Shown here: positions 6,208 to 49,927 of the stretch, piece by piece
Layout: every line of letters begins with the position of its first letter
Numbering within the stretch: the first letter of the stretch is position 1
DNA from: Acidimicrobiaceae bacterium
GTDB lineage: Bacteria > Actinomycetota > Acidimicrobiia > Acidimicrobiales > UBA8190
Length of the DNA: 64,000 nucleotides
Direction: 5' to 3'
NCBI GenBank assembly: GCA_003151955.1
Contig: PLZB01000024.1
Span: 62,001-126,000 of the forward strand
Notes under the pieces: model-generated
What the model saw: the letters and a program-made list of their open reading frames with translations, nothing else
Told to the model about the DNA's origin: nothing
Database searches by the model: none
Program-made: the position numbers and the translations under genes

Positions 6208-6236
6208 TACCTGGGCTTTTGTCCTCCACCAGGACC
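6169..6236. repeat. Attachment-site-like repeat, copy A (within and upstream of intact tRNA-Arg)
   Basis: The 57 bp at 6173-6229 run from the anticodon stem through the 5' end of the tRNA into its upstream region. They recur exactly at 11437-11493 and 18340-18396. With copy B the identity is 68 bp (6169-6236). Just beyond lies an inverted repeat GTCCT-ccacc-AGGAC and a GTCCTAG/GGCCTAC pair at 6241-6259, which look like recombinase-binding arms (inference). The right flank is similar to that of copy C. Confidence 0.8.
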
Positions 6237-6533
6237 CTCTGTCCTAGTTTCTGGCCTACAACCCGTCCGGTCAGTCTCGCACGACGGCGGCAGGCTCTCG
6301 ACCACTGAACGACGGTGCAACACCCGCTCGTCGAACTCCGTGTTGGCGTCGACGTCGCTCCCTGGAAGTGGTTCTCCGTCATCTCCTCCGTGACAAGATC
6401 ACGAGGTGACCGCCCAGTTCCCCAGTCTCGAGAACGGTGGCGCCACGTCATGCGCTCTGGTGGCCGTGCCCGGCGGTCCGTCGTTCGAGCCGGTTTTCAA
6501 ACTGTGCGACCCGAGATGGTCGGAGGTGATGCG

Positions 6534-8852
6534 ATGACCGTCAGCGCACGCGAGCAACTCGCTGTCCTGCTGGCCACGGTGGGTGGGCGGGGCTCGTTCA
6601 GCGCCTCGCAGACGGCGCCGACCGATGACCTCCACCTCGAGGTGCGAGGTGTCGGTCCGCTGACGTTCCCCGTTTCCGAGGAGCAGGCGGTGCGGCTCTG
6701 CTCCCTCGGTCGGCCCGCCCGCTACGGCCAGGGCGAGCACACCCTCCTCGACCCGGCGGTCCGCAACACCTGGGAGATCCCCAGGAGCAGGGTGAAGATC
6801 GACAAGCGGGAATGGGACAGGACGCTCCTCCCGGTGATCGAGCACCTCCACCGCGACCTCGGCCTGCCCGACGGCCGGCTCGAGGCTGAGCTCCACTCGA
6901 TGTTGGTCTACGCCCCAGGGCAGTTCTTCGTGCGCCACCAGGATTCGGAGAAGGAAGACGCCATGGTCGGCTCCCTGGTCGTCACACTCCCCTCGGCCTT
7001 CACCGGCGGTGCCTTCGAGGTCGAGCACCAGGGCCAGGTCGCCACCTACCGGGGGTCGAAGAAGGCCCTGTCCTTCGTGGCCTTCTACAGCGACTGCCGC
7101 CACCAGATCAAGCCGGTGAGGTCCGGCCACCGCGTCGTGCTGACCTACAACCTCATGCTCAGGGGCGATCCGGCCCTTGAGCTCCGACCCCCGTCGGAAC
7201 CCGGGTTGGTCGACGACCTGGCCGGCTACCTGGAGCGGCACTTCGACGGGCCCGAAGTCTGGCGTCGCCTCGTCTACCTGCTCGATCACGAGTACACCCC
7301 TCGCGGTTTGAGCTGGTCCCGGCTGAAGGGAGTCGACGCCGGACGGGTCTCGGCGCTCCGGACGGCGGCCGAACGAGCAGGCTGCGAGGTGGCCCTGGGC
7401 CTGGCCGAAGTCCACGAGACCTGGAGCGCCTTCGAACCCGAACGGGCCCGGTCGTACCGGCATTGGCGCTACCGCGACTGGGAAGAGTTCGAGGAGGACG
7501 ACCCGGCCGTCGACTCCCGTGACCGGGGGCCGGCCGACGATTACGACCTCGACGAGCTGATCGAGTCCACCGTCACCCTCGGCAGCTGGCTCGGCTCGGC
7601 CGGTGAGAAGGTGGAGGAGTTCGGCCTCTCGATCAAGGACGGCGAGGTCTGCGCCTCCACCCCGTCCGGCGACATGAGCCCCTACGCATCCGAGTACGAG
7701 GGCTACATGGGCAACTGGGGCAACACCCTCGACCGCTGGTACCACCGCGGCGCCCTGGTGGTCTGGCCGACCCGCCTGGACTTCTCCGTGCGGGCCGAGG
7801 CGTCCCCCTCCTGGGCGCTCGACACCCTGTCCGCCCGTGTCCGCGCCGGCGACCTGGCCGGAGCCAGACAGGAAGCCGGCACGCTGGCACCGTTCTGGGC
7901 CCAGGAGGCCGGACGGTCGGCGGCCAAGACCTTCCTCACCAAGGTGATGCGCACGGCCCGCCTCCTCGACGAGCCGTCGACGGCCGCCATGCTCCTGAAG
8001 CCCTTCCGGTTGGAGATGCTCACGCCCGGCCACGCCAAGGCGCTCAGCGCGCTGGTCGCCGGCTACGGGGAGCAGTGGGCCGCCGACCTCGTCCAGTCGT
8101 GGTCCACCCGGCGGGGCCGGTACGACCCTCACGTCCCGAGCACAGCAGCGTGGATCGCTTCGCTGCACCCCCTCTGTTCCGCGCTCGCCGGCTGCGGAGA
8201 CCCGGGCATGGCGGCCGCTGGCCTTCTGCTCCGCAACTCGTGGAGCTGGCTCGGTGAAGCGATCGAGAAGGACCTGGCCACGGCTTCGCCGCTCCAGCGC
8301 AGAGAGGCCCTGGGCGATCTGGGACGCCCGGTCGCAGCGGTGCTGGAGGGAGCATCGCTGGTCGGTGCGGCCGACCTTGTCGACGAGGCCGCCGCGTTCC
8401 TGTGCCGGGAGGACGACGGCATGGTCGGCTTCGCCACCGAGGTGCTCCGAGCCGTTCCCGCTCCGAAGTGGAGCGCGGCCGGCCTCGACGCCGTCTCCGA
8501 TCACTGCCGCCGTGTGCTGGAGGGGTGCGTTGCCCGCCCGCCGCGCCCTGCGGACGACTGGTCGATCCGGATGCCTCCCGGCTGCTCGTGCGAACTGTGC
8601 GGCACGCTGGCAGGCTTCCTTTCCGACCCGGCCCGCAAGATCATGGAGTGGCCGCTCGCCAAAGCGGGCCGCGCCCACATCCATTCCCGGGTCAGCGGTG
8701 CCGATCTCCCCGTCAGCCACGTGACCAGACGGAAAGGCTCCCCGTACACGCTCGTCCTCACCAAGACAGCCGCGCTCTTCAAACAGGAAGAGCAGGATCG
8801 CCAACGTGACCGAGCGGATCTGGCCTGGATCAAGCGGAAACGGCACGTATGA
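6534..8852 (+). CDS. 2OG-Fe(II) oxygenase (prolyl-4-hydroxylase-like), large form
   Basis: The protein has 772 residues from the ATG at 6534, chosen because a perfect GGAGGTGA lies 4-11 nt upstream; a frame open from 6315 has no such support. The N-terminal domain carries the double-stranded beta-helix iron site: His135 and Asp137 in RHQD, distal His190 in CRHQ, and Arg200 for 2-oxoglutarate. The rest is an alpha-rich, repeat-like region ending in a Cys cluster (CSCELC) and a conserved tail with HIHSR and PYTLVL. It would hydroxylate a protein or nucleic acid substrate using Fe(II), O2 and 2-oxoglutarate; the substrate is unknown. It stands alone as the first gene inside the tRNA-flanked element, pointing away from the tRNA. 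A role in the accessory or defence region is inference from position. Confidence 0.85.
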   Translation: MTVSAREQLAVLLATVGGRGSFSASQTAPTDDLHLEVRGVGPLTFPVSEEQAVRLCSLGRPARYGQGEHTLLDPAVRNTWEIPRSRVKIDKREWDRTLLPVIEHLHRDLGLPDGRLEAELHSMLVYAPGQFFVRHQDSEKEDAMVGSLVVTLPSAFTGGAFEVEHQGQVATYRGSKKALSFVAFYSDCRHQIKPVRSGHRVVLTYNLMLRGDPALELRPPSEPGLVDDLAGYLERHFDGPEVWRRLVYLLDHEYTPRGLSWSRLKGVDAGRVSALRTAAERAGCEVALGLAEVHETWSAFEPERARSYRHWRYRDWEEFEEDDPAVDSRDRGPADDYDLDELIESTVTLGSWLGSAGEKVEEFGLSIKDGEVCASTPSGDMSPYASEYEGYMGNWGNTLDRWYHRGALVVWPTRLDFSVRAEASPSWALDTLSARVRAGDLAGARQEAGTLAPFWAQEAGRSAAKTFLTKVMRTARLLDEPSTAAMLLKPFRLEMLTPGHAKALSALVAGYGEQWAADLVQSWSTRRGRYDPHVPSTAAWIASLHPLCSALAGCGDPGMAAAGLLLRNSWSWLGEAIEKDLATASPLQRREALGDLGRPVAAVLEGASLVGAADLVDEAAAFLCREDDGMVGFATEVLRAVPAPKWSAAGLDAVSDHCRRVLEGCVARPPRPADDWSIRMPPGCSCELCGTLAGFLSDPARKIMEWPLAKAGRAHIHSRVSGADLPVSHVTRRKGSPYTLVLTKTAALFKQEEQDRQRDRADLAWIKRKRHV

Positions 8853-8899: not shown

Positions 8900-9466
8900 T
8901 CAGTGCCCCTGTCGAGTGAGTTCAGCCTCGCCGAAGGGAAACCAGCGGGCCAGATGATCCCTGGTGATCCGGTGGTCGAGGTAGTCGTCGAGGTACTGGC
9001 GACGATCCGTCACGAACCGGCCGTTGTTCAACTTGAGCGATCTGATCGTCTCCCTCACATCTCTCGCCCGCTTGGTGTTGCCGACCTCGACTTCCCCGCT
9101 CACGAGATTCAGCTCGAACTCGCCGGCCTCGACCGAGAACGGGTCGACCGGTACCGATTGATCCGTCTTGTAGGTGTTGACGGGAGGAGAAGCGAGGCGA
9201 AAGTTGCTCCACTCGTACGCCTCCATCGGAGCAACGTGGCGGGGGGTGAAGTGGTCGACGGTCAAGAAGGCGGTTGATCGCCGGACCCGGATTCCCAGGT
9301 AGGCGCACGTGTCGTCGTAGGCGTCGCAAAGATCGGGAAGGGCCCGACGCCAATATGGTCTTCGGGCTGTCACCGGTGCTTGCTGGGAGGCCAGGTACCT
9401 GGCTCCGGGCTGCCGGACCCGGGCGTCGAACGACGCCGGTTCGGGCCTTTCCGCAACCGGGATCAC
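8900..9466 (-). CDS. HNH endonuclease, Septu PtuB-like
   Basis: The protein has 188 residues and starts at a GTG that overlaps the stop of the upstream ATPase gene by 4 nt (GTGA), so translation is coupled. An HNH core is visible: Cys54, then TVDHF with Asp71-His72, YEWSNF with Asn88, and PVNTYK with Asn97. This is the layout of small HNH nucleases that pair with SMC-like ATPases in Septu (PtuA/PtuB) and some retron-associated modules. Members of the family cut nucleic acid during phage infection. A long basic N-terminal region precedes the nuclease core. The pairing makes a Septu-like defence role likely, but the exact subtype cannot be fixed from sequence alone. Confidence 0.8.
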   Translation of the reverse strand: MIPVAERPEPASFDARVRQPGARYLASQQAPVTARRPYWRRALPDLCDAYDDTCAYLGIRVRRSTAFLTVDHFTPRHVAPMEAYEWSNFRLASPPVNTYKTDQSVPVDPFSVEAGEFELNLVSGEVEVGNTKRARDVRETIRSLKLNNGRFVTDRRQYLDDYLDHRITRDHLARWFPFGEAELTRQGH

Positions 9467-10746
9467 CGGCGGACGCCGGAGGTGACCAACTCCCAGCGGG
9501 CCCAGAACGGGTCCGTCGACGAGATCGCCTGTTCAAGTCGAGCGGTGACGGCGGCGACATGCTCGGGATCGGGTTTCTTCTGTCGGGCGATCTCGGCCGC
9601 TGACTGGAGGGCGTGTTCGGCTTCGATCGAACGCGTCGAGGTCAGGTCGAACAGGTCGGAGCGCAGCCAGGCGTCGACTTCGCCGATCGGTCCCCATGGC
9701 ACCTGCTTCAGCACGACGTCGGCCGTACCGTCGCGCCGAACGAGGTCTAGTGTGAACAGCCGGTCCCGGCGCTCCTCGACGATCGTCTCCACCGAGGCGC
9801 ACAGCAGCGGGGAATGGGTTGCTCCGATCAGTTGTACCCCGTCGGCGCCGCTCAACGCCTTGACAACCTCGAGCAGTGACGGCAGAAGGCTCCGTTGCCA
9901 ACGAGGATGCAGGTGCGCCTCGATCTCGTCGAAGAGGAAGATCACCGATGAGGTCGTCTGCTCACCCGTCAGGCGGGCCGCCTCCCGGTGCTCATGCCAC
10001 GACCAGACGAGGAGGTAGGCCAGAGAGATGATCCGTTGAACGCCGGCCGAGACATGGGTCACCGGCTCCGTGCCGTAAGGAAGTCGCAAGGTCGGGAACG
10101 ACCGGGCATCGCCGACCAGGACGCGCCGCGGCTTACCGGGGCGCAGCTTCTCGGTCCCGTCCGAAAGCAGGGCGAGGACCTCGGTCAGCTCCTTGAACCG
10201 TTCGTCTTCGTCCCGCTGCCAGGCCACCCAGTCCTCGACCAATCCTCGGCAGAGCACCGCCTTGTCAGGCGAGCGAAGACCATCCCACAGCGCGGCACGG
10301 TCAAACACGAGCGACGTCTGGAACGGCACTTCCAGGAAGTCGCTCACGTAGCGCGAGCCGGCGTGGTTCCTCAGCGGGTCCCACACCGAGAACCCGCCAT
10401 CGGCTGCGGCGTAGATGACGAGGCCGGGCTTCGGGGGCTGTCCCCGCGCCGCCAACCACCGCTGAGACTTCGGGTCGAACCGGCCGGTCGTTCGAGCCAC
10501 GCCGACCTTTCCATCGAAGGTCGCCTTGATGGAAGCGGTGCTTGCGTGCGCACGATTCGGAATGGCCATCTCGCTTCGCCAGCCGCGGGTCAGCGCCCAC
10601 CACAGTGCCTCCAACAGGAAGCTCTTGCCCAGACCGTTGTCCCCGGTCATCACGTTGAGCCTTGGGGCGAAATCAGCGCGAAGGTGTGAAGCAGGGCCGA
10701 TACCCTCGGTCTCGAAGCTGCGGATCACAGACTCATCCTCGCGCAC
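9463..10746 (-). CDS. AAA/SMC-like ATPase, Septu PtuA-like
   Basis: The protein has 427 residues from a GTG at 10746 with no clear ribosome-binding site. It has the layout of an ABC/SMC-type ATPase of the AAA_21/AAA_15 kind: Walker A GDNGLGKS at residues 35-42, a signature-like HVSAGVQR, Walker B VIFLFDEIEAHLHP and the H-loop GATHS. The coiled-coil region of true SMC proteins is short, as in defence ATPases. It is the upstream partner of the HNH nuclease, with a 4-nt overlap. In Septu the ATPase binds and holds back the nuclease until infection; this role is known for the family and inferred here. Only this pair occupies 8.9-10.7 kb. Confidence 0.85.
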   Translation of the reverse strand: MREDESVIRSFETEGIGPASHLRADFAPRLNVMTGDNGLGKSFLLEALWWALTRGWRSEMAIPNRAHASTASIKATFDGKVGVARTTGRFDPKSQRWLAARGQPPKPGLVIYAAADGGFSVWDPLRNHAGSRYVSDFLEVPFQTSLVFDRAALWDGLRSPDKAVLCRGLVEDWVAWQRDEDERFKELTEVLALLSDGTEKLRPGKPRRVLVGDARSFPTLRLPYGTEPVTHVSAGVQRIISLAYLLVWSWHEHREAARLTGEQTTSSVIFLFDEIEAHLHPRWQRSLLPSLLEVVKALSGADGVQLIGATHSPLLCASVETIVEERRDRLFTLDLVRRDGTADVVLKQVPWGPIGEVDAWLRSDLFDLTSTRSIEAEHALQSAAEIARQKKPDPEHVAAVTARLEQAISSTDPFWARWELVTSGVRR

Positions 10747-10974: not shown

Positions 10975-11157
10975 TCAGTCCTCCCGACGCAGCGAGTGCA
11001 TGCCGAGGGCCTTCTCGAAGGCGTCCCACTCCTCGTCGGTGAGACCCTCGATGGCCATCTCCTCGTCGGTGGGCATCGGCCGGGCGAGCCGAAGGGCTTC
11101 CTTCGGGGGGAGCACCGTCAGCCGGGGCGCCTCATCCGAGCCGGGGACGACGGGCAT
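10975..11157 (-). CDS. Small unknown protein at the end of element 1
   Basis: The protein has 60 residues, with the ATG at 11157 and no clear ribosome-binding site. It shares the block LTVLPPK-ALR-RPMPT, the stretch EMAIEGLTD-EWDAF and the last six residues SLRRED with the 92-residue protein at 17938-18216. The segment between the EWDAF helix and SLRRED is missing here, so this copy looks like an internal deletion. Both copies read toward the element interior and sit just inside an attachment-site-like junction. I do not recognise the family. Acidic, short and linked to element ends, it could be an antitoxin, a regulator or a recombination accessory protein, but nothing decides between these. 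Confidence 0.6.
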   Translation of the reverse strand: MPVVPGSDEAPRLTVLPPKEALRLARPMPTDEEMAIEGLTDEEWDAFEKALGMHSLRRED

Positions 11158-11307
11158 GAGCGAAAGCGTAGGCCCCGGTCGATCACGCCGACATTGCAGA
11201 GCCTCCTGACCACGCCGGGCGGTCTCCCAACTCCCCTGGGCGCCCCCGAGCGGGTCCGATCGGGACTCCGCTGACGGCCGTCCGCCGGCCCTCCCGAGCC
11301 CGATCCT

Positions 11308-11367
11308 GTCCTAGTATTTGTCCTACAACAGGCGCCTTTTCGTGTCGTCGGGTGCCGTCGGAAACCG
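11308..11367. repeat. Arm motif plus truncated core left of copy B
   Basis: GTCCTAG-tattt-GTCCTAC (11308-11326) is followed by a stretch similar to 18307-18347 and ends in GGAAACCG (11360-11367), the first bases of the tRNA-derived core, after which the similarity stops. The same arm lies at 18288-18306. Here about 70 bp of unrelated DNA separate this truncated core from the full core at 11437, so junction B looks like a scar of more than one recombination event. Confidence 0.55.
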
Positions 11368-11432
11368 TTGCTCTCCCAGGTCAGAACCGTCAAACGCCTA
11401 GGACAGTCGTCTCAACCGGAGGCACGGTTCAC

Positions 11433-11500
11433 TTTAGGAAACCGACGCTCTATCCCCTGAGCTACGAGGGCTACCTGGGCTTTTGTCCTCCACCAGGACC
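11433..11500. repeat. Attachment-site-like repeat, copy B (junction between elements 1 and 2)
   Basis: 68 bp are identical to 6169-6236: the 5' half of tRNA-Arg(CCT) from the anticodon loop plus upstream DNA. The 3' half of the tRNA is not restored; only GCACGGTT remains nearby, displaced by a few bases, so this is not a working tRNA. The right flank differs from copies A and C. Confidence 0.8.
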
Positions 11501-11600
11501 GAAGGGTGCGACATCGTCCCAATTCCCTTGTCACACCTCTCGTGTAGCTTGCCCATGGACGACGGACCGGGCGCTGATCTGAGGGAAGGGGCCGGCGCAG

Positions 11601-13367
11601 ATGCTCACAATCGCTGACGCCTTCACCGGGAGCGCTGCTCTGCTCACACCCGGTCGGAAGTCCCTGGGCCAGGTCCTCGGCTGCCCAGGCCAGGCCATCG
11701 AGGAGGTCGCCATCGGAGACCTCCATGACCGGGCCTGGCGGGCCCGTCTCCAAGAGTCCCTCCTCCCCGGCCTCGCCAACGACGAGACTCTCAAGCTCCT
11801 CCAGGACGAGCTGATCGGCGATCTCTTCCCTGCCGCTGCCCTCCTCCCCGATAGGGATCTTCCAGCCCACGAGCTCGAGCCCAAGCTGTTCCAATTGCTG
11901 GCCCGCAACCAGGCCGGCCGCTGGTCGACGGTACTCACCCTCCGCGTGGGGGAGACCCGGGACTGGATCAGCGCAGGGAACCGCATGGTCTCCGCCCTCC
12001 TCGCCCTCGCCTTCGGCCGCAGCCTCCTGGGACTGGCCAGCGTCCAGCCCGACACCTCGGCGGCCGCTCCCGGAATCGACCTCGCCATCCTCCTCGACCA
12101 CGGCCAGGCCACCTCCGACGGGACCCTCCTCGAAGCCGTCACGAGCCTGGCCAACGGCGACCGGCCGGCCCACGTCCGGGCGGCCGCCAGCCGGCTCCTG
12201 CGGACAACCGGGACCCTGGCCGGGCACCACGAGGCCCTTGCCGGGATTCTGGCCGGGGCCGGGAACCCCCGCTCGGTAGAGATCTTCGCCGAACGGGAGC
12301 TCCTGCTCGGTCCCTCCCGGCCCTTCGGGGAGATGGCCCGGGACCTCGGGATATCCGCCACCAGGGTCGCCATGCTCAGGAACGACGCCGAACGCGGGGT
12401 CAGGGCGGTGGCGGCCCAGGCCCTCGGGGAGACCCGGGCCCTCATCAACGGCGTCCGGAGTTGGCTGGGGGAGATCGTCCCCCTCGAAGCCACCGACGAC
12501 CTCCTCGGACGCCTCGGCCTGGGATCGAGCCGGACCAGGCCGGGGGCGCTCCTGCTGTGGCTGGCCGGCCCCTACCGGATCGTCGGGACGACCAAGGGCT
12601 GGCTTGCCGCCGACCCGGACGCGGCCGCCACCGGCACCAGGGCCGCCATCGCCCAGGACGGCGGGGTCCGCCCGGCCCGGGACTGCCTCGACGAACTGGC
12701 CCTGGCCGGAGTCCGGTCCGAGCACCGCCACGCCTGGCTGGCGGCCTGCGGGGCACTCTTCGTCGAGGACATGGTCGTCGACCGCTCGGGAAGCCTGGCC
12801 GTGGTGGCCGAGCGGATCCTCTTCGCCACCGGCCGGGCCATGGCCGTCGCCGATCTGGCGGGCCTGGCCGGACAGGCTGACCAGGCGGCCCGGCTCCGTC
12901 TCGCCCTCTCCCGGGACCGCCGGTTCGTCCGTGTCGCCTCCGACGTCTACGAGCTCGCCGAGTGGGGTAGCACCCCCTGGTGGCCCCGTCGGGAGCCCGG
13001 CGAAGTACCGACCTTGGCCACCCTCTCGGACGATCGCTGGTGGCTCCCCGTCCCCGTCGACGCCGGGGTCCTCAGCGGCGACACCATTCCCTTCCCAGCC
13101 GACCTGGCTGAGGCCATCGGCCTCGCCCCCCTCCAACGGCGGACGCTCACCAGCCGTTACGGCCCCGTCGCCGTTGTCGACGAGAGTGGGGTCCCCACCC
13201 TCGGGCCCCTCCGCCACGTCGCCCTGGCCGGAGGGGCTCGGATCGGGGATGATCTCTGGCTCGGCTTCGATCCCGCCGGAGAAGTGACCGTCCTCGTCCT
13301 CACCCCCGACCAGGAACCCCCCGCCGCCGACCGTTCCCTCGCCACGACCGCCCAAGGAGCCAGATGA
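11601..13367 (+). CDS. Sigma-region-4-like/winged-helix protein, gene 1 of BREX-like operon
   Basis: The protein has 588 residues; the ATG at 11601 follows GAAGGGG at a distance of about 10 nt. Residues about 225-270 resemble sigma factor region 4: a NPRSVEIFAER helix followed by a helix-turn-helix DLGISATRVAMLRNDAER. Residues about 397-456 look like a winged helix of the HARE-HTH type, ending RRFVRVASDVYELAEWG. The N-terminal 220 residues are mostly helical and unrecognised, and the C-terminal 130 residues are beta-rich. DNA binding is likely; a real sigma activity is not, since region 2 is absent. The next gene overlaps it by 4 nt (ATGA), so it leads a five-gene operon with two BREX-type ATPase-like proteins and a helicase. 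It may be the DNA-recognition subunit (inference). Confidence 0.75.
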   Translation: MLTIADAFTGSAALLTPGRKSLGQVLGCPGQAIEEVAIGDLHDRAWRARLQESLLPGLANDETLKLLQDELIGDLFPAAALLPDRDLPAHELEPKLFQLLARNQAGRWSTVLTLRVGETRDWISAGNRMVSALLALAFGRSLLGLASVQPDTSAAAPGIDLAILLDHGQATSDGTLLEAVTSLANGDRPAHVRAAASRLLRTTGTLAGHHEALAGILAGAGNPRSVEIFAERELLLGPSRPFGEMARDLGISATRVAMLRNDAERGVRAVAAQALGETRALINGVRSWLGEIVPLEATDDLLGRLGLGSSRTRPGALLLWLAGPYRIVGTTKGWLAADPDAAATGTRAAIAQDGGVRPARDCLDELALAGVRSEHRHAWLAACGALFVEDMVVDRSGSLAVVAERILFATGRAMAVADLAGLAGQADQAARLRLALSRDRRFVRVASDVYELAEWGSTPWWPRREPGEVPTLATLSDDRWWLPVPVDAGVLSGDTIPFPADLAEAIGLAPLQRRTLTSRYGPVAVVDESGVPTLGPLRHVALAGGARIGDDLWLGFDPAGEVTVLVLTPDQEPPAADRSLATTAQGAR

Positions 13368-14149
13368 CGACCACCGCCGTCCCCCCCACCCTCGAGCAGG
13401 CCCTCGAGGCGCTCGAATCCGATGCTGACGGAGCCCTGCGCGCTCTCCTCGCCGCCGTCAAGGAAGCCAAGCGGCTGAAAGCTGCGGCCGCCACCGGTCA
13501 GATGCGCGACGTCCAGCAGGCCGTCGAGGCCGTCGACCGGCTGGCCGCCGCCGCGGCCGGGTCCGCCACCGAGCTGCGGGCCGGCTGGCGCTTCGATGTC
13601 ACCGGCTACTTCGAGTCCGAGAGCTACACCAAGGAGCTCCTCGCTGCCACGGCCGCCGCCGGGATCCAGGCCGTCGAGTCAGACCAGCGGATCCTCTGCT
13701 ACCCCAGCATCATCCAGGTCTCGACCGCCGACACGACCGTCGTCATCGACAAGAAGCGGGAACGCCGGGTCCGGCCCTCCTTCCTGGCCCGCCTCCTCGC
13801 CGCCGGTCAGGACAAGACCCCGAAATCGAAGCCCGAGGCCTTCCTCGAAACCCTGGCCGCCGCCTACGCCCTCGTCGCACCCCGACCCGGCGCCGTGGCC
13901 AAGCTCACCGACCTCTACCGGGTCCTCACCCTCCTCCCCGGAATGAGCCGGGAGTACACCAAGCCGGAGTTCGCCCGGGACCTCTACCTCCTCGACCAGA
14001 GCGGCATCACCCTCACCAGGACCGGTCTGGTCATGAGCCTCCCGGCCAGCGCCCTCACCCGGGGATCCGGCAACCTCACGACCGTCACCAAGGCCGGCCA
14101 GGTCAAGCTCTACGCCGGCGTCGCCTTCACCGCCGAGGAGGCGCCATGA
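13364..14149 (+). CDS. Unknown protein, gene 2 of BREX-like operon
   Basis: The protein has 261 residues and overlaps its neighbours by 4 nt on both sides (ATGA). Residues about 10-75 are an Ala/Glu/Leu-rich amphipathic stretch that may form a coiled coil. The rest is a mixed alpha/beta domain with a basic patch (KKRERRVRPS) near residue 130 and a predicted all-helical C-terminal half. No catalytic motif, membrane segment or signal peptide is visible, and I do not recognise the family. Its fixed place between the putative DNA-binding protein and the ATPase pair suggests a structural subunit of the same complex, by analogy with small BREX proteins of unknown activity; this is inference from position only. 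Confidence 0.65.
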   Translation: MTTTAVPPTLEQALEALESDADGALRALLAAVKEAKRLKAAAATGQMRDVQQAVEAVDRLAAAAAGSATELRAGWRFDVTGYFESESYTKELLAATAAAGIQAVESDQRILCYPSIIQVSTADTTVVIDKKRERRVRPSFLARLLAAGQDKTPKSKPEAFLETLAAAYALVAPRPGAVAKLTDLYRVLTLLPGMSREYTKPEFARDLYLLDQSGITLTRTGLVMSLPASALTRGSGNLTTVTKAGQVKLYAGVAFTAEEAP

Positions 14150-15099
14150 TCGGCGTGGGCGACTACACCGCTTTTCTCGACACCGAGTACCTCCACGGCT
14201 ACGTCGACAGCGGCGGAGCAGCCGTGAAATTCGTCCTCCCCGCCGACGACGAGTCCGCCGGCCGGTTCTCCACCGGCCTCCGTCAGCGGGCCGAAGCCGG
14301 CGGCTTCGCAGTCGTCCGAGTCGACGCGGCCCTGACCAAGGTCCATCTCATCGAGCAGATCTTCTTCGCCGTCAGCCGCCAGATCGACTGGAACGCCCTG
14401 GCCGCCACCACGGCCCGCCGGGCCCTGGCCGTGGCAGGCTACCCCGTCCCCGACGGTGACGACATCTCCGTCGACGCGGTCGCCGCGGTCCGCGGGGTCG
14501 AGTCCCGCGAGCTCAAACGGGACCTCGACCGCCACCTCCAGGACTTCGTTTACCACGACTACGCCATGGTCCAGGAGTTCCGGATCGCCATGCTCCGTCT
14601 CTGCCAGGCCCAACTCCGCACCGGTCAGGTGACCGATGCCGAGCACAGCGCCGTCCTCGACTGGCTCGCCGGAGAGCTCCGCCAGATCTCGGCCCTGAAG
14701 ACCGCTCTCATCTTCCGCCGGATCGCCCGCCACAACGCCCGCCACCTCCTCTTCTCCCTGGCCCACTGGCTATCCGTCAACGGCCGAGCCGGCCTCGTCA
14801 TCGAGCTCGACATCCGTCGCCTCGGCCTGGCCCGGCGCCCCGGGCCCGACGAGCGGGAAGGGATCTACTACACCAAGGCCTCCGTCATCGACGCCTACGA
14901 GGTCCTCCGTCAGCTCGTGGACAACACCGACGAGCTCTCCCACTGCTGCGTCGTCGTCGTCGCCCCGGCCGAATTCATCACCGACCCCACCCGGGGCATC
15001 GAGGCCTACCAGGCCCTCAAGCTCCGGATCATCGACGAGGTCCGCGACCAACGACGCGACAACCCCTACTCCTCTCTCGTCCGCCTGGGGGCATCATGA
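14146..15099 (+). CDS. BREX ATPase-like protein with degenerate P-loop, gene 3
   Basis: The protein has 317 residues and overlaps by 4 nt at both ends. The N-terminal lead-in (EYLHGYVDSGGAAVKFV, residues 14-30) is the segment that precedes Walker A in BREX-type ATP-binding proteins (DUF2791), but the loop that follows reads LPADDESAGR, without GxxxxGKS/T. The strand usually carrying Walker B reads GLVIELDI (about 216-223), without the Glu after Asp. The fold appears kept while ATP binding is probably lost. The next gene encodes an intact version of the same ATPase class, so this may be a non-catalytic partner in a hetero-oligomer, as seen for degenerate P-loop pairs elsewhere (inference). The assignment to DUF2791 rests on pattern only. 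Confidence 0.65.
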   Translation: MIGVGDYTAFLDTEYLHGYVDSGGAAVKFVLPADDESAGRFSTGLRQRAEAGGFAVVRVDAALTKVHLIEQIFFAVSRQIDWNALAATTARRALAVAGYPVPDGDDISVDAVAAVRGVESRELKRDLDRHLQDFVYHDYAMVQEFRIAMLRLCQAQLRTGQVTDAEHSAVLDWLAGELRQISALKTALIFRRIARHNARHLLFSLAHWLSVNGRAGLVIELDIRRLGLARRPGPDEREGIYYTKASVIDAYEVLRQLVDNTDELSHCCVVVVAPAEFITDPTRGIEAYQALKLRIIDEVRDQRRDNPYSSLVRLGAS

Positions 15100-16352
15100 C
15101 CACCGTGGCCGTCCAACGCCGCCGGGCCCTCGAAGCCCTGCGGGCCGGAGTCCCCAACCGTGACGCCGTCACCGTGCTCGGCTCCCTCCAGATCGGCGTC
15201 GAAGACCGCTTCAGCCAACTCCTCGACTCCATCGAAGCCGTCCCCACCGGCCCCGCCCCCGGCGGGATGCTCGTCGGGGGCGGCTTCGGTTCGGGGAAGA
15301 GCCACGTCCTCGAGCACCTCGCCCACGTCGCCCTCAGCCGGGGGTTCGTCGTCTCCAAGGTCGTCATCTCCAAGGAGACCCCCCTCTACGACACGGCCAA
15401 GGTGTTCCGGGCCGCCATCGACGAAGCCCTCGTCCCGGGCCGGCCCGGCTCCGCCATCGACGAGCTGTCAATCGCTCTCCAACCCGATTCCGCCGAGTAC
15501 GCCGAGCTCTACCACTGGGTCCACGGCGACGACGTCCCCCTCGACAGCCGCTTCGCCGCCACCCTCTTCCTCTACGAGTACGCCCGGGGCGACGCCGAGT
15601 TCATCGACCGGATCGTCCGGTTCTGGGCTGGCGACCCCCTGTCGGTGGCCGACCTCCGGCGACGGCTCAAGGAGACCGGGGCCGCCGCCACCTACCGCCT
15701 GGCCTCCATTCGCGAGCAGCAGCTCTCCCTCCAGCGGTTCCGCTTCGTCTCCCGCCTCGTCCGGGCCGCCGGCTTCAAGGGCTGGGTCGTCCTCCTCGAC
15801 GAAGTCGAGCTCATCGGCCGTTACACCGTCCTCCAGCGGGCCCGGTCCTACGGGGCAGTCGCCCGCTGGATCCGCGGTGAGCGCGAGGACTCCGCCGCCC
15901 CCCTGGGTGCGGTGCTCACCACCGTCGACGACTTCGAGGCGATGGTCCTCACCGGCAAGAGCGACACCGAGCTCATCCCCAAGAAGCTCCGCATGAAGGA
16001 GACCACCGAAGGGGAGCTGGCCGCTATCGACGCCGAGGCCGGCATGCGGATCATCTCCCGGGAACAGGTCCGGCTCCAGCCTCCCGGACGCGACGAGCTC
16101 GACCGGACCTACGCAAACCTCAAGCAGATCCACGCCGAGGCCTACGGCTGGGACCCCCCCGACGTCGTCGGCATCGAACGCCTGCCTTCCAACCGGATGC
16201 GCCAGTACGTCCGGGCCTGGATCTCCGAATGGGACCTCCGCCGCCTCGACCCCACCTACGTCCCGGAGATCGCCGCCACCCCTCTCACCGTCGACTTCAG
16301 CGACGACGCCGACCTCGAAGGGGACGGCGGGGACGGCGGGCGTGCTGATTGA
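15096..16352 (+). CDS. BrxD-like ATP-binding protein (DUF2791), gene 4 of BREX-like operon
   Basis: The protein has 418 residues; its start overlaps the stop of gene 3 by 4 nt. Walker A is GGGFGSGKSH (residues 61-70), followed by the family pattern FVVSKVVISKETPLYD (84-99) and Walker B VVLLDEVELI (231-240). This is the layout of the BREX system ATP-binding domain family (BrxD and relatives). The C-terminal tail is acidic and Gly-rich. In type 2 BREX, BrxD is paired with the helicase BrxHI, and here too the next gene is a helicase, overlapping by 11 nt. No PglX methylase, PglZ phosphatase or BrxC-size ATPase lies nearby, so it is not a standard BREX locus. Confidence 0.85.
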   Translation: MTTVAVQRRRALEALRAGVPNRDAVTVLGSLQIGVEDRFSQLLDSIEAVPTGPAPGGMLVGGGFGSGKSHVLEHLAHVALSRGFVVSKVVISKETPLYDTAKVFRAAIDEALVPGRPGSAIDELSIALQPDSAEYAELYHWVHGDDVPLDSRFAATLFLYEYARGDAEFIDRIVRFWAGDPLSVADLRRRLKETGAAATYRLASIREQQLSLQRFRFVSRLVRAAGFKGWVVLLDEVELIGRYTVLQRARSYGAVARWIRGEREDSAAPLGAVLTTVDDFEAMVLTGKSDTELIPKKLRMKETTEGELAAIDAEAGMRIISREQVRLQPPGRDELDRTYANLKQIHAEAYGWDPPDVVGIERLPSNRMRQYVRAWISEWDLRRLDPTYVPEIAATPLTVDFSDDADLEGDGGDGGRAD

Positions 16353-17958
16353 CACCCTCGAAGCCGTCGTCGGGGAACGGCCCGGGGCCACCGTCCCGGA
16401 GCTGAGCCGGGACCTGGCCTCCATCGGCACCCCCACCGCTGACGACGAAGTCTCCCGCCTCCTCTACGGCAGCCACGGCCGCTTCCGCAGCGACGCCGGC
16501 TCACCCCGGCGGTGGTGGCTGGCCACCACCGCACCGGCTCCCGCTCCCCCCGGAGCCGAATCGGGGCAGTCAACCGCGGAGTCCTGGGAGGACATCTCCC
16601 CTGGCCTCTACGCCTGGCAGACCGAGGCCCTCGACGCCTGGGTGGCCCAGCACCGCCGGGGAGTGGTCGAAGCCGTCACCGGCACCGGGAAGACCAGGGT
16701 CGGGGTGGCCGCCGTCCTCGAGCAGCTCCGCCGACGGGGCCAGGCCCTTGTCATCGTCCCGACGAAGGAGCTCCAGCGGCAGTGGCTGGCCGTCCTCGGG
16801 CCGGCCCTGCCCGCCGGCACCCTCGTCGGCCACCTCGGCGACGACGGCCGAGCCTCACTCACCAGCCACGACGTCGTCGTTGCCATCGTCAACACCCTCC
16901 GCTCCGCCGACACCCGTCCCATCCGCCCCCACGGCCTCCTCGTCGCCGACGAGTGCCACCGCTACGGCGCCCTCTTCAACCGCCTCGCCCTTGACCCCCG
17001 ATTCGACCGCCGGCTCGGCCTCAGCGCCACCTACGCCCGCGACGACGACGGCCATCGCACCTGGCTCGACCCCTACTTCGGCGGCTCCTGCTACCAGCTC
17101 GGCTACCGGCGGGCCATCGCCGACGGGGTCGCCGCCCAGGTTGCCGTCGCCCTGGCCGGGGTCACCTTCGAACCGGCGGAGCAGGACACCTACGACATCC
17201 TGAGCGACACCATGGCCCAGACCGCGGCCAAGCTGATAGCCCGCCATGGACTCCCCCGGGAGCCCTACCAGGAATTCATCCGGGTCCTCCACGTCCTGGC
17301 CGACCGCTCCGGCGACGGACCCGGACCGACCCTGGCCCGCCGGTACCGGGCCGCCGCCACCGAACGCCGCCTCCTCCTGGCCGGAGCTGGTCGCAAGGGA
17401 GAGGCCATCGACATCCTCGCCCCCGCAGTCGCGGCTTCAGAGCGGACCATCATCTTCACTCAGACCATCGAGGCCAGCGAGCGGATCGCACACCGTCTCG
17501 GCGAGGCCGGCATCGAGACGGGCGTCGTCCATTCCGGCCTCCCCACCCGACTTCGCCACAGCGTCCTCGACCGCTTCGCAGCGGGGAGCCTCAGAGCCGT
17601 CAGCGCCCCCCGGGTCCTCGACGAGGGGATCGACGTCCCCGACGCCGACCTCGCCCTCATCGTCGGTGCCAGCCGGTCCCGACGCCAGATGATCCAGCGG
17701 ATGGGCCGGGTCCTCCGGCCCAAGTCGGACGGCCGCTCGGCCCGGTTCGTCGTCCTCTACGTCGAAGGGACCATCGAGGACCCCGCCCGAGGCGCCCACG
17801 AGGGCTTCCTCGACGAGCTGACCGGCGTGGCCACCACCATCCGCCGATTCTCCGTCGAGCGCGACGCCGACGAGCTCCTCACCTTCCTCGCCGACCCGGC
17901 CCCCTCACGGCCCGGCGCGGACTCGACACCGCGAGGGTCAGTCCTCCCGGCGCAGTGA
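16342..17958 (+). CDS. SF2 DEAD/DEAH-box helicase, gene 5 of BREX-like operon
   Basis: The protein has 538 residues from a GTG at 16342 that lies inside the end of gene 4. Residues 1-60 look like a small winged-helix domain (LLYGSHGRFR). The helicase core follows: a Q-like motif LYAWQTEAL (89-97), Walker A AVTGTGKTRV (111-120), DECH (203-206), SAT (228-230), and motif VI QRMGRVLRP (452-460). The layout is closest to XPB/RecG-like SF2 translocases acting on double-stranded DNA; there is no nuclease domain. It closes the operon. The stop overlaps the 3' end of a small gene on the other strand by 21 bp. Its role is likely DNA remodelling in the same complex as the BrxD-like ATPase (inference). 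Confidence 0.9.
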   Translation: MLIDTLEAVVGERPGATVPELSRDLASIGTPTADDEVSRLLYGSHGRFRSDAGSPRRWWLATTAPAPAPPGAESGQSTAESWEDISPGLYAWQTEALDAWVAQHRRGVVEAVTGTGKTRVGVAAVLEQLRRRGQALVIVPTKELQRQWLAVLGPALPAGTLVGHLGDDGRASLTSHDVVVAIVNTLRSADTRPIRPHGLLVADECHRYGALFNRLALDPRFDRRLGLSATYARDDDGHRTWLDPYFGGSCYQLGYRRAIADGVAAQVAVALAGVTFEPAEQDTYDILSDTMAQTAAKLIARHGLPREPYQEFIRVLHVLADRSGDGPGPTLARRYRAAATERRLLLAGAGRKGEAIDILAPAVAASERTIIFTQTIEASERIAHRLGEAGIETGVVHSGLPTRLRHSVLDRFAAGSLRAVSAPRVLDEGIDVPDADLALIVGASRSRRQMIQRMGRVLRPKSDGRSARFVVLYVEGTIEDPARGAHEGFLDELTGVATTIRRFSVERDADELLTFLADPAPSRPGADSTPRGSVLPAQ

Positions 17959-18216
17959 CTTCACGGCCTCAGCCCTGAACCGGGCCCGCCCCACCGCCTG
18001 CTCGTCGAGGCAAGAGGCGACACGATCGAAGTCTCCGGAGGAGAATGCCTGCTGGGCAACCGCGATGGCCTTCACGAAGGCATCCCATTCGTCGTCGGTG
18101 AGACCTTCGATGGCCATCTCGTCGCCGGTGGGCATCGGCCGGGGCTGCCGGAGGGCATCCTTCGGGGGAAGCACGGTCAGGCGCGGCGGCACTTCCGAAC
18201 GGGGAATGACGGGCAC
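17938..18216 (-). CDS. Small unknown protein at the end of element 2 (paralogue of 10975-11157)
   Basis: The protein has 92 residues from a GTG at 18216, the point where similarity to the 60-residue copy begins. Shared parts are LTVLPPK-ALRQ-RPMPT, EMAIEGLTD-EWDAF and the terminal SLRRED. This longer copy has an extra helical stretch of about 35 residues before the last motif. It ends inside the 3' end of the helicase gene on the other strand. Both copies lie just inside a tRNA-derived junction and share the flanking arm motif, so the gene belongs to the element's end module and not to its cargo. The function is unknown. A longer upstream reading frame crosses the tRNA repeat and is not believed. 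Confidence 0.6.
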   Translation of the reverse strand: MPVIPRSEVPPRLTVLPPKDALRQPRPMPTGDEMAIEGLTDDEWDAFVKAIAVAQQAFSSGDFDRVASCLDEQAVGRARFRAEAVKSLRRED

Positions 18217-18287
18217 GCTCCTGACTGTACGCCGGTCGGCGGGCGTCGGCGTCACCGCGTGTGCCCCGGCTTCGGACGACAGACCTT

Positions 18288-18339
18288 GTCCTACTATTTG
18301 TCCTACAAATGGCGCCTTCTGGTGTCGTCGGGAGTCGTC
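18288..18339. repeat. Arm motif left of copy C
   Basis: GTCCTAC-tattt-GTCCTAC (18288-18306) and the following 33 bp match 11308-11359 with a few changes and run directly into the full core at 18340. This is the intact version of the arm-core junction that is disrupted at copy B. Confidence 0.6.
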
Positions 18340-18396
18340 GGAAACCGACGCTCTATCCCCTGAGCTACGAGGGCTACCTGGGCTTTTGTCCTCCAC
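18340..18396. repeat. Attachment-site-like repeat, copy C (right end of element 2)
   Basis: 57 bp are identical to 6173-6229. The right flank, including GTCCTAG/GGCCTAC at 18408-18426 and the next 25 bp, closely matches the right flank of copy A. This fits a model where C keeps the original chromosomal upstream region of the tRNA and A carries the version brought in by the element. Confidence 0.75.
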
Positions 18397-18467
18397 TGGG
18401 ACGCTCTGTCCTAGTAACTGGCCTACCGCCCGTCCGGTCAGTCTCGCATGGGCGACAGACCCTGTTT

Positions 18468-19088
18468 TCAGGCATCACGGATCCGGTCGATCATTCGCCA
18501 GATCTCGCTGCTGGGGTTGCTTCGGGGCGGCGATCCGTCACCTGCATGCTTCTGGTCAAGGCTCACCGCCCGCGCCTTCGCTTTGCCGTAGCGTTCGGAG
18601 AGCGCCTCAAGTGCGGCCGAGGAGAGCACCTTGGAGCAGCCGAGAATCGCTCCGGCGAAGTGCTGGGCATCGTGGCGATGGATGAACGCCGTCTGGTCTT
18701 GAAAGTGCAGGAGGAACCAGAGTTCAAGGCACGGGTTCGTAACAGCCAGATGGATGCCGTGATGGTCGGCCAGTTCGATGGCCTCGCGGAAGTTGGCGTG
18801 CTCATCGCGGTCGAAGACGCACCAGATCTCGTCGTGCGGCCGGCCTCTTCCCCGTCTGGCGTCTTGCGCCTCGGCCCGTCGTGCTCCGACAGCTCGCTCG
18901 ACAAGCTGAAGGGGCCCGCCTCGGTAGGGATCGATGGTGACGCGCACGCGGTCGCGGTGACGTCGATGCCAGTCGACGAGGTACATCTCCTCGGTTCGAA
19001 GGCCTTCGACGAACGCCAGCAGTTCGAGCCGGCCGGCCGCGTTCGACACCCGCCGTCGGGGAGGCCCGCTCCCCCCGTTGCGACTCAA
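18468..19088 (-). CDS. RloB / AbiLii-like TOPRIM-type protein
   Basis: The protein has about 206 residues; the likely TTG start overlaps the stop of the ATPase gene by 4 nt (TTGA). The RloB family pattern is clear: FVEGLRTEEMYL near the N terminus, then WCVFDRDEH, LADHHGIHLAVTNPCLELWFLLHF and a helical C-terminal part. RloB proteins resemble TOPRIM nucleases, with the Glu of the first motif and DxD of the second as metal ligands. With an AAA ATPase partner the pair corresponds to AbiL (AbiLi/AbiLii) or RloAB, an abortive-infection type of phage defence. The gene lies just right of the last tRNA repeat. A more internal start (GTG in VSNAAG) cannot be excluded. Confidence 0.85.
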   Translation of the reverse strand: MSRNGGSGPPRRRVSNAAGRLELLAFVEGLRTEEMYLVDWHRRHRDRVRVTIDPYRGGPLQLVERAVGARRAEAQDARRGRGRPHDEIWCVFDRDEHANFREAIELADHHGIHLAVTNPCLELWFLLHFQDQTAFIHRHDAQHFAGAILGCSKVLSSAALEALSERYGKAKARAVSLDQKHAGDGSPPRSNPSSEIWRMIDRIRDA

Positions 19089-20437
19089 TTGCGATCGCCC
19101 GAGGTGATGAGATCAGCGGTGGCATCGAACTCCTGGCGCGAAAGGATCGGCGTGGCGCCGTAGCGCCCGGCGAGGTAGCGGCGGCCGACAGCCTCCTCCT
19201 TGCGGGGGTCAAGATCGGCGAGCGGGTACAGACGGGAGCTGCCGTCCGCCCGCTTCTCTGTGAACCAGATCTGGTCCCGGCCCAGGAGCCGCTCACCCGT
19301 CGAGTCGCCGAGGAGCGTGGCGTCGTGCGAGTTGAACACGAGCTGCGCCCGACGAGGATTCGTCGTCGGATCCTGGAACAGGCGCACCAGCTCGGCGACG
19401 AGGGCCGGATGGAGGCTGGCGTCAAGCTCATCGGCGAGAAACACGGCGCCGTCGGCAAGCGCGTCGACCACCGGGCCGACGAGACCGAACCAGACGAGTG
19501 TGCCGAGGGACTCGTCCTGGGCATCGAGCTCGACCTCTCCGCCGACGCCTTGGTGGACCAGACGAACTCCGAGCTCCTCGAAGGCCGGACCTTCGTCAAT
19601 GCCGTCAGGCTCGCCCTCGGTCCCGGCGAGGATGCGAACGGCGCGCTGCAACCGCTCCCGCATGACCGGGTCGAGCTCGTGCTTCTTGGCCCCGGTGACG
19701 CCGAGATCCGCCGCCCGCAACAGCGCCAGGACCGACTCGCGGCGGGACTCCTGGTCGAGCAGCTGCGTCGTGAGCGCCTGACGGAACTGTCGACTGTTCG
19801 CCTCGGCGAGCCGGAGGTTGCGCCCGAACCAAGCGTACAGGGGGAGCAAAGCGGGGTGATTGGCCGAGGCCGCGGTCGAGAGGAACAACGCATTTGGCCG
19901 GAGCAACTCCATGACGGCTCGGCCCTTGACCCGCTCGACGGCACCCAGATCGACATCGCTGTCATGGCGGCGAAAAAGCAGAGCGGCCTTGCCGTGAGGG
20001 TACCGATAGGCCCACTCCTCAAGGACCCGCTCGTCGTCGAGCACGAACCCGTACTCATGGCGGACGCCAGCGAGCACGACGTCGACCTCGAATCGCGACG
20101 GCGCCCGGCGCGCCTCCGGGTCGAGCAGGAACGGACGCCGCGGGATCCCTCCCGTCGGGCTCCCCCCTCTGAATGAGTGGAGAACGTGCCCGCGCATGTC
20201 ATCCATCGCCCTGACCAGGTTCGACTTGCCGGACCCGTTGGCGCCGAACACGGCGGCCACCGGGAGCACACCGACAGGCCGGCCGCCCTCTCGCCATGCC
20301 ACCTGCCGCACCGCGCTCTTGTCAGCGAGACTGGAAGCGACCAGTGAGAGCTCGAACTCGTCGCGGAACGATCGGACATTCTCACCTCGGAAGGCGAGCA
20401 GTACTGAAACCCCGTGACCCTCGATGTTCTCTATCAC
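19085..20437 (-). CDS. RloA / AbiLi-like AAA ATPase
   Basis: The protein has 450 residues from a GTG at 20437; the reading frame is open further up to 20620 but that stretch is unlike the family and crosses an AT-rich putative promoter region. The ATPase layout is of the AAA_15/AAA_21 kind: an N-terminal SVLLAFRGENVRSF strand-turn, Walker A GANGSGKS (65-72), a middle helical region, Walker B VFLADELDASLHP near residue 325 and a sensor-like VFNSHDATLL. The partner RloB gene follows with a 4-nt overlap. RloA/RloB pairs act as abortive phage defence; ATP-dependent sensing by this subunit is the family view and is inferred here. Confidence 0.85.
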   Translation of the reverse strand: MIENIEGHGVSVLLAFRGENVRSFRDEFELSLVASSLADKSAVRQVAWREGGRPVGVLPVAAVFGANGSGKSNLVRAMDDMRGHVLHSFRGGSPTGGIPRRPFLLDPEARRAPSRFEVDVVLAGVRHEYGFVLDDERVLEEWAYRYPHGKAALLFRRHDSDVDLGAVERVKGRAVMELLRPNALFLSTAASANHPALLPLYAWFGRNLRLAEANSRQFRQALTTQLLDQESRRESVLALLRAADLGVTGAKKHELDPVMRERLQRAVRILAGTEGEPDGIDEGPAFEELGVRLVHQGVGGEVELDAQDESLGTLVWFGLVGPVVDALADGAVFLADELDASLHPALVAELVRLFQDPTTNPRRAQLVFNSHDATLLGDSTGERLLGRDQIWFTEKRADGSSRLYPLADLDPRKEEAVGRRYLAGRYGATPILSRQEFDATADLITSGDRN

Positions 20438-20784
20438 AGATCTATTATTGCAGGAAAGCTTCGTAAATACCAGGCTGATCGCACTTGAGCGTCGGTTCAG
20501 GCACAGCTTCTGGCGTCCAGTCCAGAACATGGCGACACCGACGTGCAGAGGATCGTCACCCTCGCACGACCGACACGGCCGGTCGATCACCCGGGCCAGG
20601 GTCGGCTCGACGGCTGGCAACTCGTCACCCGGAACGGGCCCGGTCCTGGTCGGCGAGCCTCGGCCGGAGCTTCCCGTACTCCCCCCAAGGGAGCCCGGTG
20701 ACAGCGCCCGCCTCGAGCGAGACCTCGTCGACTCCCAGCCGGAGGTCTCCCCCTGGCCCTCCGGGAAGCCGGCCGCCTCCGGTC
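20438..20784. other. Gap upstream of rloA with AT-rich stretch and a possible gene remnant
   Basis: 20440-20500 is unusually AT-rich for the window and is the likely promoter region of the rloA/rloB pair. On the minus strand 20625-20740 reads as a short coding-like stretch (VDEVSLEAGAVTGL, then GEYGKLRPRLAD) that ends in a stop but has no usable start, so it may be the remains of a gene. Nothing else is seen. Confidence 0.35.
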
Positions 20785-21571: not shown

Positions 21572-22417
21572 CTAGGTCGAGGGCTGGTTGCTCGGGAAGG
21601 TGTAGCTCCCGCTCCAGGCCCCGTAGGCGTTCGTGGTGACACCGTTGGCGGTGCCGGCCGTGTACTTGGCGTACCCCTGGGCGATCTGGATCAGGACGGT
21701 CCCGCCCTGGGCCACCGTCATGAGGCCCTTGAAGACCGCGGCGGTGCAGATCGAGGAGTCGTCGGTGAACGGCCCGCTGCCGTAGACCGAACCGAGGCTG
21801 CCGTTGGCCGAGCAGACCACCGTGACCTGCTTCCCGTTCTGGCCCCGGTAGGCGGTGGCGTCCTGCGCCCAGGTCTCGACCCCGACCGGGACCGTTCCGG
21901 GCGGTGCCGCCGGGAAGGTGTAGCTCCCGTTCCAGGTTCCGTAGCTGCTCGAGGTGATCCCGTTGGCCGTCCCCGCCTGGTAGCTGGGAGCCCCGGCCGC
22001 GATCTGGTAGGTGACCGTTCCCCCCTTGACCAGGGTGATGAGCCCGGACTGGACGGCGGCGGTGCAGATCGAGGAGTCGTCGGTGTAGGTCCCGTTCCCC
22101 CACACCCCGTAGGCCGTCCCGTTCGGGGTGCAGGCCAGGGTGTAGGTCTTGCCGTTCTGGCCCCGGAAGGCCGTGGCGTTGGTGTTCCACACGTTGGTGC
22201 CCGCCACCGTGGTGGACGACCCCGCCGCCGTGGTGGACGAACCCGCGGACGTGGTGGTCGTCGACGCCGAGGTGGTCGAGGTGGTGGTGCTCGTCGTGAC
22301 CGCCGCTGAGGACTTGCTGCTGCTGCACCCGGCCGCGGCCAGGAGGAGGGCCCCGGCCGTGACGACGCCGAGCGTCGTTGCCATCCGCCGGACGGGACTG
22401 TGTTCGATGGGAGTCAT
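21572..22417 (-). CDS. Lipoprotein with two LCCL-like domains
   Basis: The protein has 281 residues from the ATG at 22417. A signal peptide ends in a lipobox (LLLAAAGC) and a Ser/Thr linker of about 45 residues follows, so it is exported and lipid-anchored. Two tandem repeats of about 85 residues then share FRGQNGK, the pattern GTYTDDSSICTAAV or GPFTDDSSICTAAV, GL-T-V-GGTV, and a closing SYGTWNGSYTF or AYGAWSGSYTF. The DDSSIC-AAV signature and spacing are those of the LCCL domain, known mainly from animal extracellular proteins and some bacterial surface proteins. It lies 25 nt downstream of the nitrate transporter gene on the same strand and may be read with it. The ligand is unknown. Confidence 0.85.
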   Translation of the reverse strand: MTPIEHSPVRRMATTLGVVTAGALLLAAAGCSSSKSSAAVTTSTTTSTTSASTTTTSAGSSTTAAGSSTTVAGTNVWNTNATAFRGQNGKTYTLACTPNGTAYGVWGNGTYTDDSSICTAAVQSGLITLVKGGTVTYQIAAGAPSYQAGTANGITSSSYGTWNGSYTFPAAPPGTVPVGVETWAQDATAYRGQNGKQVTVVCSANGSLGSVYGSGPFTDDSSICTAAVFKGLMTVAQGGTVLIQIAQGYAKYTAGTANGVTTNAYGAWSGSYTFPSNQPST

Positions 22418-49908: not shown

Positions 49909-49927
49909 AGAACGAGGAGACGGCAAG

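Follow-up and report, generated by a model that had tools for sequence, protein, structure and literature searches.

The genome of an Acidimicrobiaceae bacterium (assembly GCA_003151955.1) carries an operon of five genes, here called g1 to g5, at positions 11601-17958 of a 64,000-nucleotide (nt) stretch of contig PLZB01000024.1 (contig positions 62,001 to 126,000); this whole stretch was analysed and is referred to as the window. The conserved unit of the operon is the triad g2-g3-g4, which pairs an intact and a P-loop-less ATPase-like gene and is followed by different helicase genes in different lineages. A first-pass annotation, made from the letters of the DNA, had read the operon as a compact and possibly undescribed defence system. 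The features of the operon, in coordinates of the window, are the following.

11601-13367, + strand: g1, 588 amino acids (aa)
13364-14149, + strand: g2, 261 aa
14146-15099, + strand: g3, 317 aa
15096-16352, + strand: g4, 418 aa
15276-15305, + strand: Walker A motif of g4
15792-15809, + strand: Walker B motif of g4
16342-17958, + strand: g5, 538 aa
16681-16695, + strand: GTGKT motif of g5

The five genes and their overlaps of 4 to 11 nt were recovered as first described, with 4, 4, 4 and 11 nt shared at the g1/g2, g2/g3, g3/g4 and g4/g5 junctions and all five open reading frames (ORFs) lying on the + strand. A longer antisense ORF over g1 (11412-13355, 647 aa) was rejected as the gene because the homologues conserve the frame of g1. 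A scan of the operon region for sigma-70 promoters found none.

Predicted products of the operon

The g3 and g4 proteins belong, on profile evidence, to the BrxC/BrxD family of origin recognition complex (ORC)/Cdc6-type ATPases, g3 lacking the P-loop and g4 being intact. Both match PF10923 (BrxC_BrxD) above the Pfam gathering cut-off of 22.2 bits, g3 with 50.2 bits (2.5e-13) and g4 with 85.6 bits (4.5e-24), and their relation to each other is detectable by profile only and not by BLAST. None of 93 homologues of g3 has a P-loop, as had been noticed for g3 itself, while other positions of the protein are strongly conserved; g3 is presumed to be a pseudo-ATPase of this family. Across 97 sequences, conservation of the g4 motif columns, xFGxGKSH for Walker A and DExE for Walker B, is 95% or higher. 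The earlier description of g4 as an intact BrxD-like ATPase holds for the motifs GGGFGSGKSH and LLDEVE and for the family; it does not hold for orthology, since g4 reaches only 62.7 bits (and g3 39 bits) against the BrxD equivalog model NF033438, which has a cut-off of 350 bits. BrxD identity was rejected on these scores.

The g5 protein falls among the superfamily 2 (SF2) helicases in Pfam, and the motifs GTGKT, DECH and QRMGRVLRP by which it was first recognised are all present. Its best PADLOC match is PbeA (189.8 bits, 2.1e-56), over PbeA positions 251-624 only, which are the helicase part, whereas BrxHI is matched weakly (42.6 bits); BrxHI identity was therefore rejected, and by sequence similarity g5 is nearest to PbeA/XPB. 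The N-terminal part of g5 is winged-helix-like, and the HKD nuclease motif (HxKx4D) was found in none of 27 g5 relatives.

The g1 protein is a multi-domain protein that probably binds DNA. No significant family was found for it in Pfam, nor is it named in the other libraries searched; single homologues gave Pfam matches to Sigma70_r4 and RNA_pol_A_CTD; the part resembling the C-terminal domain of the RNA polymerase alpha subunit is weak. A profile of 18 homologues searched against the PDB matched sigma-70 region 4 (RpoH, 1.7e-7), which places a helix-turn-helix at about residues 222-275. The AlphaFold2 (AF2) model (mean predicted local distance difference test score, pLDDT, 83.8) shows a winged helix resembling RNA polymerase delta and HARE domains at about residues 399-452, consistent with a weak RNA polymerase delta match of the profile in the PDB, and the sigma-region-4-like helix-turn-helix plus winged helix proposed earlier is in this way borne out. 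The model further has a C-terminal B3-like barrel at about residues 478-568, for which Foldseek returned B3 domains and the DNA-binding N-terminal domain of LlaJI.R1; the best of these have a probability of 0.97-1.00 with E-values of 0.17-0.5, and owing to such E-values the similarity is a lead and not a proof.

For g2 no family was found in Pfam, PADLOC or NCBIfam, in agreement with its first listing as a protein of no known kind. Its AF2 model (pLDDT 94.9, from a 53-sequence alignment) predicts a long helical hairpin, a small beta domain and a winged-helix-like C-terminal part, and the fold search against the PDB gave no match (best E-value 0.85).

The conserved triad and its exchange of helicases

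Relatives were collected with a g4 alignment from about 85,000 genomes, one per species; 269 were found and the best 80 were studied. Some 80 further loci, spread over several phyla, share the order g2-g3-g4, and the pair of g3 and g4 is nearly always accompanied by g2. In Acidimicrobiia the triad is followed by the PbeA-like helicase, and g1 stands upstream of it in 18 loci, whereas in Bacillota, Thermodesulfobacteriota, Chloroflexota, Gemmatimonadota and others two genes come after it, c6 (about 185 aa) and that of an SNF2 helicase. The conservation of the whole five-gene order, which the first-pass annotation had made a test of its proposal, is thus seen within Acidimicrobiia; elsewhere the triad occurs with another helicase or with none. 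At three loci (L049, L053 and L056) the SNF2 partner ends in an Mrr_cat nuclease domain (1e-23 to 3.5e-25), and these sets of triad, c6 and SNF2-Mrr are candidate restriction systems with no methylase in the operon.

In the maximum-likelihood tree of g4 the sequences with PbeA-like partners form one clade (support 100/98). This clade is nested within lineages whose partner is SNF2 or that have no helicase, and it is because of this nesting that the helicase partner is considered to have been exchanged. In the SNF2 clade, sequences from Bacillota, Thermodesulfobacteriota, Myxococcota, Chloroflexota and Nitrospirota are intermingled, and this implies transfer of the triad between phyla. The distribution is patchy (7/395 genomes of the class and 3/376 in the phylum), although both figures are lower bounds because scoring was limited to a few candidates per genome. 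In a search of 12 genomes the triad was present once in each.

The operon was compared with the systems to which its parts are distantly related. With type 2 bacteriophage exclusion (BREX; Pgl) it shares a PF10923 ORC/Cdc6-type ATPase encoded together with an SF2 helicase. Loading of BrxHI by BrxD has been proposed, without proof (PMC12839542), and the likeness extends to this proposed logic of loader and helicase. On the other hand, the operon has the P-loop-less g3 and the unrelated g2, its helicase is not the Ski2-like BrxHI, and PglX, PglZ, PglW and BrxC are missing. No methylase or PAPS (3'-phosphoadenosine-5'-phosphosulfate) reductase domain was detected in g1 to g5 with Pfam, PADLOC and NCBIfam, the flanks being scanned with PADLOC, and PglZ is absent from this genome, as the first description of an operon lacking methylase and PglZ had it. 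BREX membership was rejected: a BrxD-level score, BrxHI, PglZ, and PglX/BrxX or, as in type 4, PAPS reductase were all wanting. The label of a BREX-like system built around a BrxD-helicase pair had accordingly to be given up, with g4 far below the BrxD cut-off and the helicase PbeA/XPB-like. Among 36 triad genomes a PglZ match was present in 15, always on another contig except for one sub-threshold match 22 kb away; the homologues are in this sense not tied to PglZ, a tie that would have spoken against a separate system.

The PbeABCD system (PMC6459918) has been re-read as a CxC ABC-ATPase system (PMC10853773). The helicase core of g5 is closest to its PbeA in PADLOC, but g5 lacks the HKD nuclease, unrelated proteins stand in place of PbeB, PbeC and PbeD, whose PADLOC models gave no match to g1 to g5, and this genome has no dndC; membership was rejected on these grounds. 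Shango likewise joins an ATPase, SngB, distantly related to g4, with a helicase, SngC. It was rejected since only weak matches to SngB (37.5 bits) and SngC (26.5 bits) were obtained, its other components gave no match, the helicase families differ and Shango lacks g1, g2 and g3. In an Actinoplanes locus (L075) a solitary triad is preceded, at a distance of a few kb, by an SngB/SngC pair (2426-5873), so Shango and the triad are distinct. In type 1 BREX-related (BR) systems DUF499 ATPases are central and an SNF2 helicase is fused to a PD-(D/E)XK nuclease (PMC12839542). This fusion resembles the SNF2-Mrr partner of the distant triads, but no DUF499 ATPase was detected among g1 to g5. The expectation of an undescribed system therefore stands as far as the search went: no name is given to it in PADLOC or NCBIfam, and in the literature searched, open-licence papers only, no description of the g2-g3-g4 triad was found. 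That a BREX-family ATPase can be paired with an SF2 helicase was known before; new, as far as searched, are the triad as a module and its exchange of helicases.

A tRNA-anchored cassette

The window copy of the operon fills a 6.9-kb segment (11433-18339) as nearly its sole cargo, in tandem with a cassette that carries a Septu system. The features of this array and its neighbours are as follows.

6133-6207, - strand: intact tRNA-Arg(CCT), insertion site of the array (ARAGORN)
6169-6236: repeat copy 1, 5' half of the tRNA-Arg(CCT) gene plus 29 nt upstream (repeat search)
11433-11500: repeat copy 2, exact match of 68 nt to copy 1, forming the left border of the operon cassette
18340-18458: repeat copy 3, 91% identical to copy 1 over 121 nt; right end of the operon cassette
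17941-18216, - strand: small gene of about 92 aa, right end of the operon cassette
18287-18306: right-end sites of the operon cassette, TGTCCTAC at 18287 and 18299
11307-11326: right-end sites of the Septu cassette, two TGTCCTA, 12 nt apart (11307, 11319)
8900-10746, - strand: Septu in the preceding cassette (PtuB 8900-9466, 1.9e-52; PtuA 9463-10746, 4.8e-147; PADLOC)
18468-20530, - strand: AbiL-type pair just outside repeat copy 3 (AbiLii 18468-19088, 2.9e-20; AbiLi 19085-20530, 3.9e-86; PADLOC)

The 34-nt core of the repeat occurs three times in the window and not once in 100 shuffles, and no copy of comparable length was found elsewhere in the genome. Direct repeats with part of a tRNA gene at both ends, by which a tRNA-integrated element is recognised, are present, and an integrase of the element's own is not: no tyrosine integrase was found on the contig, with 16 matches elsewhere in the genome. 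The first-pass annotation had placed a compact, self-contained system on an element amid phage-defence genes. Its claim of an element is stronger than it knew, as the operon fills one cassette bounded by tRNA halves, with Septu and AbiL adjoining.

Both cassettes end alike, with a small gene, paired TGTCCTA sites and the tRNA repeat. Their right-end stretches (11307-11374 and 18287-18354) are 87% identical, and the Septu cassette has a homologue of the small gene at its own right end (10978-11157; 153 nt at 84%, tblastx). The Septu proteins themselves are unrelated to those of the operon; the Septu cassette also holds a 778-aa protein with a 2-oxoglutarate (2OG)-Fe(II) oxygenase domain (6516-8852). 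Relatives of the small gene were found in 28/397 genomes of the order. The end gene is probably antitoxin-like, because its relatives often precede a PIN-type toxin gene, and it is a marker for the right-hand ends of tRNA-anchored elements of this order. Twelve of its loci (L170-L181) were fetched; in six of them (L171, L172, L173, L174, L179 and L181) a tRNA gene lies no more than about 2.5 kb away, and several have a PIN-like toxin gene, recognised by eye, 3' of the small gene. At L173 three genes resembling type I restriction-modification genes by eye (1725-7809 and 8908-9944) are found beside the small gene, a PIN-like gene and tRNA-Glu/Gln, and this set is perhaps another cassette of the same type.

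Long direct repeats are likewise found on either side of the operon in L042 (7990-8091/14435-14543) and L016 (6941-7069/10930-11050), and repeats flank it in L039 (4160-4213/12900-12953/13373-13425), where the repeat is itself an inverted repeat; as a control, none of 150 mismatched flank pairs gave a repeat. Most relatives are without recognisable attachment-site (att) repeats at their flanks. A comparison with empty sites was unproductive, the family members being too diverged at the flanks.

Proposed function and rival explanations

We infer that the operon encodes an ORC-type ATPase module which loads or controls an SF2 translocase on DNA, serving here as anti-invader cargo, and assign this reading a probability of about 0.58. 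In such a scheme the operon is the cargo of a cassette, 11433-18339, which inserted at tRNA-Arg(CCT) with no integrase of its own. The g2, g3 and g4 proteins would assemble on DNA as an ORC-like complex, using ATP, and would load or license an SF2 motor, in this case the PbeA/XPB-like g5. The g1 protein may be the DNA- or RNA-polymerase-recognition subunit that aims the machine in the Acidimicrobiia version, and the outcome would be the blocking or remodelling of invading DNA. Since this copy has no nuclease, its action could proceed through stalled replication or transcription or through recruited cell nucleases, while the related operons of other phyla may bring a nuclease directly as the SNF2-Mrr fusion. 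A purpose in defence is favoured by the nearest relatives of g5 and g4, for PbeA, BrxD and SngB belong to defence systems. The tRNA-half borders, the right-end module common to both cassettes, the adjoining Septu and AbiL, the retained triad order, the changed helicase partners, the Mrr fusions and the patchy distribution speak for the reading as well.

Several observations weigh against this interpretation. Neither a nuclease nor a methylase is encoded in the operon copy itself, and a g4 search of IMG/VR and PLSDB gave no match. In many other Actinobacteria the triad is solitary among metabolic genes. The association with defence and mobility genes is clear for the window copy, with Septu and AbiL adjoining, and weak or absent for the family. 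The enrichment near defence genes, a survey of which was proposed at the outset, is weak across the family, and in Nitrospirales the module is a chromosomal fixture. Neighbours of Acidimicrobiia loci matched 68 PADLOC models, those of other actinobacterial loci 64, and random regions of the order matched 12; this comparison is weak evidence because only models matched, and not proteins per system, could be counted. The models are moreover redundant, many of the matches are to generic ATPases or helicases, and most of the Acidimicrobiia neighbours sampled look metabolic.

The main rival is a cellular role for the ancestral triad. The triad may be a helicase loader of the cell or a module of DNA or transcription maintenance (restart, repair, stalled polymerases) that was captured in places, the five-gene version being itself cellular or element-replicating; for the operon we consider this unlikely, though it deserves to be taken seriously, and for the Nitrospirales branch the data favour it. 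There g3 and g4 are fused, often tandem-duplicated and without an adjoining helicase, and the chromosomal neighbourhood of the fused triad, with a histidine kinase and one or more response regulators next to it, is conserved across lineages in which the neighbours are about 50-65% identical in protein; this is further evidence against a defence function. Inheritance of the fused block is apparently vertical, and g2 is found in 19/78 Nitrospirales genomes. Another conserved position is seen in L131 and L132, beside a DEAD/DSHCT helicase and eno- and era-like genes (read by eye). From these positions it follows that the module is not only an accessory defence gene set. The solitary actinobacterial triads, the single copy per genome and the resemblance of g1 to accessory parts of RNA polymerase point the same way, and relatives of XPB and SNF2 include transcription-linked enzymes. 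Against a cellular role stand the patchy distribution, the transfer between phyla and the exchange of partners, together with the Mrr nuclease fusion and the att-like cassette borders beside Septu. At the Nitrospirales loci L081, L085, L089, L095, L097 and L134-L139, a single g3-g4 fusion or two of them (about 758 and 774 aa) stand after g2 in this conserved block.

It is also conceivable, and in our estimate improbable, that the operon serves its mobile element, g3/g4 and the helicase starting its replication or excluding rivals at the tRNA site with phage defence being incidental. In its favour, archaea and plasmids use ORC/Cdc6-type ATPases to start replication, the cassette carries almost nothing besides the operon, and it lacks an integrase and therefore depends on other elements. 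However, the Septu cassette has the same ends with no such genes, most relatives lack recognisable att repeats, and plasmid records gave no match. A third rival has the operon as a reduced or orphaned form of BREX or Pbe, dependent on a phosphorothioation locus or a methylase at another place in the genome. It has the PF10923 and PbeA-like homology on its side, but it is already largely refuted by the missing partners (PglZ and DndC in the genome, PbeB, PbeC and PbeD in the operon), by g3 and g4 scoring far under the BrxD cut-off and by a g5 without the HKD part of PbeA, and is most improbable.

The loader reading can be carried further in a form that we regard as tentative and rather doubtful. 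The g2-g3-g4 triad would then be a general bacterial ORC-like helicase loader, unrelated to DnaC/DnaI and to BREX proper, that can be plugged into XPB/PbeA-like, SNF2 or SNF2-Mrr motors. In mobile cassettes it would provide a methylation-independent immunity that senses DNA through the promoter- or RNA-polymerase-like domains of g1, and in Nitrospirales it would have been domesticated for a cellular task. If the proposed loading is true, BREX-family ATPases act outside BREX as a separable module that drives various helicases and helicase-nucleases, and the question of whether BrxD loads a helicase becomes isolated and testable. The window copy moreover represents a type of integrase-less cassette at a tRNA gene, with shared ends and defence cargo, and the shared end gene and repeat could serve to find further unknown systems.

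Outside the array, the window holds a HipA-like kinase gene (36256-37410), a ParD-like antitoxin gene (49892-50320) and, at 21575-22207, the gene of an LCCL-domain protein that is internally duplicated (a repeat of 196 nt at 73%).

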